A stretch of 43,741 bases of DNA, taken from positions 1 through 43,741 of the forward strand of contig CALXDC010000020.1 in assembly GCA_944386975.1 (NCBI GenBank), written 5' to 3'. Source of the stretch: an uncultured Oscillospiraceae bacterium (lineage in GTDB: Bacteria > Bacillota > Clostridia > Oscillospirales > Oscillospiraceae). This document shows positions 14,544 to 20,533 of this stretch, one piece after another. Position 1 is the first letter of the stretch. Every line of letters begins with the position of its first letter. Both the position numbers and the translations under genes were made by a program. The notes under the pieces were generated by a model. It was given only the letters and a program-made list of their open reading frames with translations, was not told the DNA's origin and ran no database searches.

Positions 14544-14595
14544 TCTTGTTTTCACCTCCATTAGATTTCGCGGGGAAACTTTGGTGCGTTCAAGA

Positions 14596-14705
14596 AAAGG
14601 AAAAACGACCCTTCGCGCAAAGACGCGGAGGATCGTGCAAATCAAACTGATCAGCTCTCCTCGGCAGGACTTACGGCTTTCGCCACCTGCTGTCTTTGGA
14701 ACGCA
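14596..14705 (-). ncRNA. Ribosomal protein L10 leader RNA with attenuator
   Basis: On the minus strand, shortly after the promoter, the RNA contains CCAAAGACAGCAGGTGG ... TCCTGCCGAGG (about 14702 down to 14658), the conserved kink-turn and internal loop to which L10 binds. Downstream the sequence ACGATCC pairs with GGGTCGT (14605-14636 region) with an inner CGCG/CGCG pair, followed by TTTTT (14605-14601): an intrinsic terminator before rplJ. The layout fits the known L10 autoregulatory leader of Firmicutes. Confidence 0.88.
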
Positions 14706-14711
14706 ACAAAT

Positions 14712-14740
14712 ATTATATTCAAGGCCCAACCAAAAGTCAA
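14712..14740 (-). promoter_or_regulatory. Promoter of rplJ-rplL
   Basis: Minus strand TTGACT (14735-14740), 17-bp spacer, TATAAT (14712-14717). It shows that rplJL has its own transcript separate from rplKA. Confidence 0.88.
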
Positions 14741-17932: not shown

Positions 17933-18595
17933 ATGTATCACACCATTTTCTTTGACTTAGACGGCACTCTTACAGATTCCAGTGAGGGGATTTTCAAATG
18001 TTTCCACTATGCGCTGGACTGCATGCACGCCCCTCCTCTGCCTCAGGGGGAGGAATTTCAGATCATCGGCCCGCCGCTGGAGGACTCCTTTGCCCGCCTG
18101 TGCGGTTTCTCTCCAGAGGACTGCGTCAAGGCCCTGGGCTTTTTCCGCCAGCGTTACCGGACGGAGGGCTGCCGGGAGGTAAAAATTGTGCCGGGAATGC
18201 GGAAGGCCCTGGAGACCCTGCGGGCGGCCGGGCTTCGACTGGCGGTGGCCTCCAGCAAGGAGGAGCGGGGCTGTCACCTGGTGCTGGAGGCCCTGGGCAT
18301 CCACGACTGCTTTGACTGCATCTCCGGCCACAACGTAACCCTCGCCAGCACCAAGGAGGCGGTGATCCGCGCCGCCATGGAGCAGATGGGCCTCCCCGAC
18401 GCCTCCGGCGTTTTGATGGTGGGGGACCGGAAGTATGACGCCGACGGAGCCGCCGCCGTGGGCATGGACTGTCTGGGGGTGGATTTCTGTGGCTTTGCCC
18501 CTGCGGGGGAGCTGGAGGCCCACGGGGTCCTCGCCGTCGTCCATACCGCCCAGGAGATGACGGAATACATTCTGGCCCATAGCCAAAAGATATGA
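17933..18595 (+). CDS. HAD family hydrolase (phosphoglycolate phosphatase-like)
   Basis: 220 residues. HAD motif I FFDLDGTLTDSS (Asp8, Asp10), a helical cap region (~15-80), motif II in LAVASSKEE, the conserved Lys after it, and motif IV GDRKYDADGAAAVGM. This is the subfamily IA layout of Gph/PpaX-like small-molecule phosphatases. The real substrate is not readable. It starts 46 bp after ruvX and is probably on the same transcript, ended by the hairpin at 18597-18636. Confidence 0.88.
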   Translation: MYHTIFFDLDGTLTDSSEGIFKCFHYALDCMHAPPLPQGEEFQIIGPPLEDSFARLCGFSPEDCVKALGFFRQRYRTEGCREVKIVPGMRKALETLRAAGLRLAVASSKEERGCHLVLEALGIHDCFDCISGHNVTLASTKEAVIRAAMEQMGLPDASGVLMVGDRKYDADGAAAVGMDCLGVDFCGFAPAGELEAHGVLAVVHTAQEMTEYILAHSQKI

Positions 18596-18596
18596 A

Positions 18597-18636
18597 AATA
18601 ACCTCCGCTTCCAAAATAAAGGAAGCGGAGGTTATT
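18597..18636 (+). terminator. Long-stem terminator after the HAD gene
   Basis: A perfect 16-bp stem (18597-18612 with 18621-18636) with an 8-nt AT loop; the 3' side ends in TTATT followed by TTGG. Only a modest T-run, but a strong stem right at the gene end. Confidence 0.75.
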
Positions 18637-18669
18637 TTGGTTCTGACGAGGGGTTTGTTGTTTTGTCGG

Positions 18670-18767
18670 TGGCCGACGGTGTACTGTCTGGTGTTATGCC
18701 TCCGGCGGGTGACTTTTCTCGCGGAAGAAAAGTCACCAAAAGTCCGCTCAGAACCTACGGTTCTAAG
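18670..18767 (+). repeat. Left inverted end of the 536-bp element
   Basis: Contains the 12-bp stem GGTGACTTTTCT (18708-18719) with AGAAAAGTCACC (18726-18737), loop CGCGGA, then a second hairpin AGAACC-TAC-GGTTCT (about 18750-18764). Confidence 0.85.
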
Positions 18768-19107
18768 GACTCCCTTATCCTGACGTGGAACGATAGTCCC
18801 CCCTGACTATCGTTATCCCCGTTGCCTCCGACGCTCCGTTGACGTGTCCGCTACAGACTAATACCGCGCTTCGGCGCGCTGCCCTGGCGAGTAGACGATG
18901 TCTGTTTCGTCTATCGCTCTTCCGCATCTGAACTGCTGCGGCGGCGGCAAGTCTTACAGTATCGGAAATTGCAGAAGCCCCAACAACCACCATGGTAGCG
19001 CGCTTAAAGCGCGGAAAGAGGGGAACCCGGTCACCCCGCTGCTGCGTCAGAGGCATCCTATCTCCAATAGAGCATCAGGACCAACAGTACAAGGAAACAA
19101 AGGAGTT

Positions 19108-19205
19108 CTTAGAACCATAGGTTCTAAGTCAACTTTTGCCTACTTTTCTTTGACGAGAAAAGTAGGCCGCCGGAGGCAAAACACCATTCGAAACACCGTC
19201 GGCCA
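19108..19205 (-). repeat. Right inverted end of the 536-bp element
   Basis: Read on the minus strand it has the same two hairpins as the left end. The main stem is GCCTACTTTTCT with AGAAAAGTAGGC, loop CGTCAA. Three adjacent pairs are changed on both sides of the stem relative to the left copy (G-C to C-G, T-A to C-G, G-C to T-A), so pairing is kept. Confidence 0.85.
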
Positions 19206-19241
19206 GAAGAGAAGAAAAATGCCGTCAGCCGGTGGCGGCAT

Positions 19242-19284
19242 AAAAAGGCCCGCTGCGGGAGCGCACTCCCACAGCGGGCTTTTT
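19242..19284 (-). terminator. Terminator of thrC
   Basis: Minus strand: a ~20-bp stem of AAGCCCGCTGTGGGAG with its near-complement, followed by TTTTTA. One internal mismatch. Confidence 0.88.
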
Positions 19285-19291
19285 GACTCTC

Positions 19292-20533
19292 TTACTCCAC
19301 AACGATGCCGTTATCGGCAAAGGCCTTCAGCAGCAGGTCCATGTCGCTGGGGATGGAGATGGGCTCCCCGCAGGCCTTGATGGCGTTGGCAACATCCTTC
19401 AGGCCGTTGCCGGTGACCACGCTGACCACAGTGGCGTCCTTCTCGATCTTCCCCTCCTCGCACAGCTTCTTGAGGCCCGCCGCACCGGTGACGCCGGCAG
19501 GCTCGCCGAAGACGCCGCAGGTCCGGCCCAGCAGCTTCTGGGCAGCCATGATCTCCTCGTCGGTGACGTTGACCGTCAGGCCGTTGGACTCCCGGATGGC
19601 CATAAGGGCCTTGTCCGCGTTCCGGGGCACACCCACGGCGATGGAGTCCGCCAGGGTGTTCTCCTCCATGGGATGCCAGGGCTCCCCGGTCTCGATGGCC
19701 CGGTTCAGGGGGCAGCAGCCCGCCGCCTGGGCGGAGATCAGCCGGGGCAGCTTGTCGATGAAGCCGATGGCGTACAGGTCCTTCAGGCCCTTCCAGAGTC
19801 CCGCGATGGTGCAGCCGTCGCCCACGGAGATGGCAATATAGTCCGGCGCCTTCCAATTGAGCTGCTCCATGATCTCCAGCGCCACCGTCTTCTTACCCTC
19901 GGAGAGATAGGGATTGATGGCGGCGTTGCGGTTGTACCAGCCCCACTTGTCGATAGCCTGCTTGGAAAGCTCAAAAGTCTCCTCATAGCTGCCCTGAACG
20001 GAGATCACCGTGGCGCCGAAGGTCATCAGCTGGGCCACCTTGCCCTTGGGGGCCCGGGAGGGGACGAAAATATAGGTCTTGATTCCCGCCGCCGCGGCGT
20101 TGCCCGCCAGAGAGGAGGCGGCGTTGCCGGTGGAGGAGCAGGCGATCACCTTGGCCCCCGCCTCCCGGGCCTTGGCCACCGCCATGGCGCTGGCCCGGTC
20201 CTTCAGGCTGGCGGTGGGGTTGATGCCGTCATCCTTCACATAGAGCTTGGCAATGCCCAGCTCCCCCGCCAGCCGGTCCGCCTCATAGAGGGGGCTCCAG
20301 CCCACCCGCAGGGGGGTGTCGGGAGTATCCTCCTCCACCGGCAGCAGCTCCCGGTAGCGCCACATGGAGTTGTTCTGCCGCTTCGCCAGCTTCTCCTTGG
20401 TCAGCACCGTCTTGATGTAGTCGTAGTCATATACGATGTCCAGAATCCCGCCGCACTCACAGGTGGTGAGATCCGGGGTGGCGGCGTAGGTCTTGCCGCA
20501 CTTGACACACTTGCCGTATTTTACATTTTTCAT
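19292..20533 (-). CDS. thrC: Threonine synthase
   Basis: 413 residues. PLP-dependent fold type II enzyme converting O-phosphohomoserine to threonine. An N-terminal zinc-ribbon-like segment (Cys9, Cys12, Cys25, Cys27) precedes the catalytic domain. The PLP lysine is Lys111 in NPTASLKDRAS; the phosphate-binding loop SVGDGCTIAGLW and the ACSSTGNAASSLAG block are present. This is the longer, plant/archaeal-like class I form with the zinc segment. ATG with GAAGGAGA upstream. Promoter about 50 bp upstream; single gene with its own terminator. No hom or thrB neighbour. Confidence 0.94.
   Translation of the reverse strand: MKNVKYGKCVKCGKTYAATPDLTTCECGGILDIVYDYDYIKTVLTKEKLAKRQNNSMWRYRELLPVEEDTPDTPLRVGWSPLYEADRLAGELGIAKLYVKDDGINPTASLKDRASAMAVAKAREAGAKVIACSSTGNAASSLAGNAAAAGIKTYIFVPSRAPKGKVAQLMTFGATVISVQGSYEETFELSKQAIDKWGWYNRNAAINPYLSEGKKTVALEIMEQLNWKAPDYIAISVGDGCTIAGLWKGLKDLYAIGFIDKLPRLISAQAAGCCPLNRAIETGEPWHPMEENTLADSIAVGVPRNADKALMAIRESNGLTVNVTDEEIMAAQKLLGRTCGVFGEPAGVTGAAGLKKLCEEGKIEKDATVVSVVTGNGLKDVANAIKACGEPISIPSDMDLLLKAFADNGIVVE

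Follow-up and report, generated by a model that had tools for sequence, protein, structure and literature searches.

In the window (the whole stretch of 43,741 nucleotides that was analysed, from an uncultured Oscillospiraceae bacterium) we found an element of 586 bp that we consider rather likely to be a copy of a non-coding, MITE/BIME-like repeat, with folded ends that act as a recognition signal and copies that have been partly homogenised by exchange. The repeat family, one of the Oscillospiraceae, is apparently undescribed. Comparison of the copies showed that there are many per genome in three species, nearly all with two inverted ends, that each end is constrained to a predicted H-type pseudoknot fold and then a hairpin, and that other genera, despite different letters, preserve the predicted pseudoknot pairing. 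The sequence-only reading of this DNA had known of no named family with this build, and none was found in the searches of Rfam and the literature that we made. Rfam 15 gave no family at gathering score over the element in the window; the sole match, above threshold, was a Ribosomal protein L10 leader (RF00557) elsewhere (14591-14717, minus strand). At E<=1, positions 18500-19400 gave ten sub-threshold matches, either in the flanks or at most touching the right edge of the element, and 20 loci of relatives gave only a tRNA. In the literature searched (few subscription journals, preprints outside its scope) we found no published description of the repeat.

The element runs from 18643 to 19228 (unstranded) and is bounded by the motif CTGACG ... 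CGTCAG, which is common to other copies. The limits first given to it (18670-19205) were too narrow, since the other copies place CTGACG at 18643 and CGTCAG at 19228. It lies between convergent genes, an upstream one (17933-18595, plus strand) that we take to encode a putative HAD-type hydrolase and a downstream one (19292-20533, minus strand) that is presumably threonine-synthase-like (translations read, without family search), and each gene has its own terminator-like hairpin at its 3' side, ahead of the element. The 98-bp ends are, as had been described, ungapped inverted copies (78/98 identical), and the repeat finder extended the inverted arm to 107 nt with 79% complementarity.

At the left end, on the plus strand, a perfectly paired stem 1 of 12 bp (GGTGACTTTTCT / AGAAAAGTCACC, 18708..18737; repeat finder and covariation) is combined with a stem 2 (18721..18747; covariation) between the loop GCGGA (18721-18725) and TCCGC (18743-18747) across the linker AAAAG (18738-18742), and is followed by a second hairpin, TCAGAACC-tac-GGTTCTAA with one C-A mismatch (18748..18766; alignment and covariation). 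The right end repeats this build on the minus strand, 459 bp away, with a perfectly paired 12-bp stem 1 (GCCTACTTTTCT / AGAAAAGTAGGC, 19138..19167; repeat finder and covariation), a stem 2 (19128..19154; covariation) between the loop GTCAA (19150-19154) and TTGAC (19128-19132) across AAAAG (19133-19137), and a second hairpin, TTAGAACC-tat-GGTTCTAA (19109..19127; covariation). The left end only carries in addition a small outer hairpin, GTCGG-tgg-CCGAC (18665..18677, plus strand), read from the sequence and with like ones in other copies by eye. The centre, for which at least four further stems had been claimed, contains three perfect ones of at least 6 bp with loops of 3-12 nt, namely a 10-bp stem (AACGATAGTC / GACTATCGTT, 18789..18814), a 7-bp stem (TAGACGA / TCGTCTA, 18892..18913, seen by eye in most alignment rows) and a 6-bp stem (18999-19013), all on the plus strand and from the stem search, and a fourth of 5 bp by eye (18865-18878). 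Two of these lie within a pair of inverted inner repeats (18864..18879, GC-rich, and 18997..19014, both plus strand) recognised by their pairing across copies, of which 16 pairs are kept, hardly varying, in at least 17 of 19 copies; pairs in the centre are mostly invariant, and hardly any covariation was found there across copies. The fold energy of the element is far below that of shuffles (z -14.6 and -15.1 on the two strands, 0/100 shuffles reaching either), to which the long inverted arms contribute most.

The claim that the loop bases of the main hairpin drift turned out to be wrong. At each end the five loop bases are complementary to five bases downstream of the hairpin, giving a predicted H-type pseudoknot, and loop and downstream bases co-vary as its second stem. 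The repeat-end unit measures 72 nt and consists of the 12-bp stem, the 5-bp loop-to-downstream stem, the A-rich linker and then the hairpin. From 192 candidate end cores, four were dropped by an anchor filter and ten by a stem-1 filter (at least 9/12 pairs), leaving 178 from three species. A short A-rich linker is present in 152 of these (AAAAG 106, AAAAA 45, AAACG 1), in which the loop/downstream combinations GTCAA/TTGAC, GCTGA/TCAGC, GCGGA/TCCGC, GCCAA/TTGGC and GCGAG/CTCGC occur and stem 2 has five pairs in 127 ends, four in 24 and three in one, the pair most often lost being the outer one (loop G to A). In the predicted fold, a 5-nt linker would be tight for spanning a 12-bp stem.

Pairing holds in 97.7% of cells over the 37 distinct rows, and both sides have changed in 10 of the 25 pairs (five in stem 1, four in stem 2 and one in the second hairpin). 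The covariation score was 0.327, compared with a shuffled mean of 0.112 (0/500 shuffles reached it) and at most 0.073 in slid controls; this score, the percentage paired and the number of cells changed on both sides were each above all 500 shuffles. Two of the five covariation measures were unremarkable because the variation consists of a few cassettes: the ten pairs changed on both sides compare with 7.7 in shuffles (reached by 12/500, a weaker measure), and the 16 pair types with a shuffled mean of 19.4 (reached by all 500). Related copies inflate these 37-row counts, so that the test with one hairpin per genome, described below, carries the weight. An outer hairpin around TGAC gave a minor signal, with arms of at least 5 bp in 52 of 158 ends versus 32.4 in shuffles (maximum 43).

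Among the other 26 of the 178 ends, 24 were scorable and have an insert between stem 1 and its downstream partner, 63-64 nt long in 22. This insert, starting ATCTCCGCGCTAAG, sits directly 3' of stem 1 in the pseudoknot linker (for instance in the copies L012, L021 and L041) and could represent another small element or an additional structural domain. Insert-bearing ends keep at least four of the five stem-2 pairs in 21/24 cases and three in the remaining three (shuffled mean 8.6, 0/2000 reaching the observed number).

Homologous copies, for which the sequence-only reading had proposed to search, exist elsewhere. In its own draft genome (G000) 151 BLAST pieces were found; 43 loci were examined, 40 of them distinct once three duplicates are set aside (two facing ends in 37, a half in one, two cut by contig ends), counts that are lower bounds because 40 of 72 first-look candidates were scored; three places matched by the covariance model R1 (C9:64891, C10:54534 and C65:47) lie outside the counted loci. 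The search covered 40 genomes, own included, of which 13 match; every one of the 10 other genomes of the genus is among the 13, and two of the matching genomes, G004 and G006, represent species with many close copies. Between inner landmarks 60 copies measure about 500-910 bp and one half 236 bp, and among the own-genome loci examined in this 90% complete draft no end pairs wider than about 0.9 kb were found. A coding element was rejected, as none of 61 elements has a gene call wholly inside it; with the same home-made caller, 11 have a flanking call that overlaps the edge or half. Contig ends interrupt the copies L051 and L052 and copies on several G004 contigs, so draft assemblies probably undercount the repeat. 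A module like CCCTCGGTTGCCGGGACCGGC followed by a T-run recurs, by eye, just outside many copies (e.g. L004, L015 and L049) whatever the gene direction, and may be a further repeat or a portion of a longer element. The L011 copy holds within its centre another GC-rich repeat, which has inverted ends of its own (about 1745-1945). Phages, plasmids and viral contigs yielded no copies with the window element or the hairpin pattern as query, nor did plasmids with an end of a relative.

Across the family we searched with model R1, built without the pseudoknot, so that it carries the stem-2 letters but no stem-2 pairs. Of the 150 genomes of the family that were searched, it matches 52 (own included), which belong to 44 of 106 genera. 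Hairpins were selected as a perfect stem of at least 10 bp with TTT or TTC within and a purine run after it; stem 1 is thus partly a selection criterion, and both the end-core and the cross-genome tests bear on stem 2 and the linker only. Of 104 such hairpins at loci of other genomes, 74 have a stem 2 of at least 4 bp, 20 one of 3 bp and 10 none, against 29/183 with at least 4 bp in a cross-genome control. When one random hairpin per genome was taken from 35 genomes (drawn mainly from R1 matches and representing about 24 labelled genera, with seven same-genus genomes, four other genera present twice and the record WQSH without a genus label), a match of at least 4 bp was found in a mean of 30.8 genomes (minimum 29), versus 6.6 (maximum 12) with partners permuted, and 43 distinct stem-2 strings occur over these genomes, overlapping registers included. 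The selection for structure that the sequence-only reading had suggested is supported by this permutation and by the covariation score, both of which point to constraint on the folded strand. G437 is a weak case, with a stem 2 of 3 bp or none in 16 of 17 hairpins. Inward-facing end pairs in other genomes are 370-490 bp apart in 21 of 27 cases (nine genomes) and 515-776 bp in the other six. A class-wide search at E<=0.001 matched 10 of 291 genomes. Two of them are its own and another member of the family; the remaining eight are weak, and their loci have 3-bp stem-2 matches (G311, G328, G300) or nothing. Among the matches listed for Oscillibacter sp. ABMPRH_166_1 (JAAVZX; L124-L202) there are many like-stemmed hairpins, several directly after stop codons, with a different continuation; these hairpins and those of bacterium SpSt-1139 (DSAB), with a similar stem and no stem 2 by eye, were rejected as members.

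The linker itself appears to follow a rule. Among the 56 distinct rows (34 genomes) that have both a purine run and a stem 2 of at least 3 bp, the A-run of the linker has the length of the T-run in stem 1 in 13/13 rows for a length of three, 17/24 for four, 10/15 for five (the rest six), 2/2 for six and 1/2 for two. The base after the T-run also relates to that after the A-run: C goes with G in 31/31 rows and A with G in 2/2, and G goes with G, C and T in 8, 8 and 7 rows. Dropping the stem-2 filter adds a few exceptions, and T4-G stems divide between AAAAG and AAAAA. Such a parallel register of A-run and T-run would suit a third strand along stem 1, and ordinary pairing of the two is also possible.

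We placed 57 of the 61 copies with respect to genes called by the home-made caller: 38 lie between same-direction genes, 15 between convergent and four between divergent ones. The background of 209 gene pairs, which takes in the gaps that bear elements, has 153 same-direction, 26 convergent and 30 divergent ones. An exclusive placement in convergent gaps, hinted at by the terminator-like flanks of the window copy, was rejected on these numbers (38/57 same-direction), and convergent gaps are enriched (15/57 versus 26/209, Fisher p = 0.02). For divergent gaps the difference is not significant (4/57 versus 30/209, Fisher p = 0.18). H-type pseudoknots are classical RNA folds, and this fold, the strong fold energy, the excess between convergent genes and the fewer (p = 0.18, not significant) divergent placements are in line with ends that, transcribed from neighbouring genes, act in 3' UTRs as stability, processing or protein-binding sites for which the repeat is kept. 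We regard this as unlikely, though with some claim to attention, since with inverted ends one transcript carries one end sense and the other antisense, the terminator-like hairpins of both neighbours in the window precede the element, and Rfam gave no match above threshold. The same convergent excess, together with the intergenic, multi-copy nature and long inverted arms of the repeat, fits a rearrangement site or a BIME-like element of chromosome structure that would extrude a single strand or cruciform between transcription units and so serve gyrase or nucleoid proteins. Gene order at the window copy does differ from that in G004 and G006: in the loci read there, both flanking genes lack this neighbour as well as an adjoining copy of the element (in the case of the threonine-synthase gene of G004, the comparison covers the last 82 bases on the contig concerned). 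Nevertheless, this break is a single case, an anecdote, and the 38 placements between same-direction genes also argue against such a function, which we consider improbable.

For 16 of the 38 own-genome loci tried, both flanks lie within a single locus of G004 or G006, and at 15 of these at least one end is present. The proposed check for empty sites in relatives yielded one, since G006 lacks the L011 copy at the corresponding position. Conversely, 112 G004/G006 end pairs (some repeated) were compared with limited stretches of G000 and no empty place was found, indicating that most copies are old. By eye, CCATACCG stands on both sides of the L011 copy, at unequal distances from the CTGACG/CGTCAG boundary. 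Comparable sites are shown by this comparison of loci to be mostly common to the sister species, and many end cassettes differ. At orthologous sites, with a flank identity of about 78-95%, 21 of the 35 end pairs differ by at least 3 of 30 core bases and 14 keep their type, so exchange is incomplete; over whole ends the median identity is 0.842 for the same site and 0.824 for other sites (p = 0.054). Shared sites with differing end types indicate that the sites themselves endure and that exchange has replaced many of their end cassettes, although some memory is retained.

This bears on the compensating changes described for the window copy. The paired stems and their matched changes stood; their origin by change in place was not supported, as each of the two window end types is found complete in dozens of other copies. 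With both types widespread and orthologous ends hardly more alike than others, there is no need to suppose that the three matched changes arose in place. The differing cassettes at orthologous sites, and the existence of one hybrid stem with three mismatches among the 178 ends (GCCTAC.../...GTCACC), also agree with an explanation free of selection on the fold, in which template switching at quasi-palindromes and gene conversion between copies keep the hairpins perfect and matched changes are mutational bookkeeping. The stem-2 partner, however, lies outside the hairpin, beyond the reach of within-hairpin correction, and matches across a linker of 5 or roughly 68 nt and, with 43 strings, in 35 genomes; already weakened by the insert and cross-genome tests, this explanation seems to us very improbable.

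Of the origins first suggested, a MITE moved in trans is a candidate, with a repeat family that is real, one empty site, no clear target duplication and no partner transposase found. A Y1/RAYT transposase (PF01797) gave no match in its own draft genome; in the 10 other genomes of the genus it is present in G001, G006 and G009, out of step with copy number. The repeat resembles MITEs as generally known and as described in PMC2229807 in being short, non-coding and multi-copy, with terminal inverted repeats (107-nt arms, 79%) around no coding gene. It differs in that no parent transposon or clear target duplication was found, the arms are only about 79% alike, and the ends are constrained by fold more than by sequence. 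According to PMC3733652, REP/BIME sequences (GTAG- and CGTC-tagged REPs) are high-copy, intergenic palindromic units with subtypes, often in opposite orientation and mostly between same-direction and convergent genes, all of which recalls the copy number, opposed ends, subtypes and gene placement found here. REPs are simple hairpins of 20-40 bp, whereas the present repeat spans about 0.6 kb and combines, at each end, a 12-bp stem and a predicted pseudoknot with a second hairpin. In place of an unpaired GTAG/CGTC tag on the hairpin, it has CGTC at the outer boundary and outer arm, and no RAYT partner was found in its own genome; the words 'pseudoknot' and 'Clostridi' are absent from the main text of that paper. 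PATEs of Haloquadratum, in the account of PMC3119063, are gene-free and multi-copy, with near-terminal palindromes into which small repeats are inserted, much like the linker insert here; that account gives them no terminal inverted repeats and a resemblance to IS605-type ends, in contrast to the inverted ends of our repeat, for which we found no IS605-type link. The hairpin ends of IS200/IS605 elements (IS608) are read as single-stranded DNA by means of short guide pairings and of base triplets that lie beyond the hairpin, as PMC5934647 and PMC8266576 describe, and short pairings outside a hairpin are likewise found here. The IS608 guide pairs with the cleavage site, whereas here the pairing is with the hairpin loop, and the own genome has no Y1 transposase match.

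Under the MITE/BIME-like reading that we favour, a trans-acting factor (a recombinase, transposase or binding protein) would recognise the folded end in single-stranded DNA or in RNA and may also have spread the element, and gene conversion or repeated invasion between copies would swap whole end cassettes, leaving only self-consistent folds. More tentatively, and as something we would not yet call probable, the repeat may represent an undescribed, family-wide class of mobile or regulatory element with ends recognised via a pseudoknot formed in a single strand. A third strand would probably take part, since the A-run of the linker and the T-run of stem 1 match each other in the manner of a base-triple code. 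Descriptions of bacterial interspersed palindromes mostly concern simple hairpins, and here a pseudoknot is kept by covariation in a sample of 35 genomes of about 24 labelled genera. This covariation points to a partner molecule that reads shape and not sequence, and the pairing of the stems provides a handle for testing what the repeat does and what moves or maintains it.
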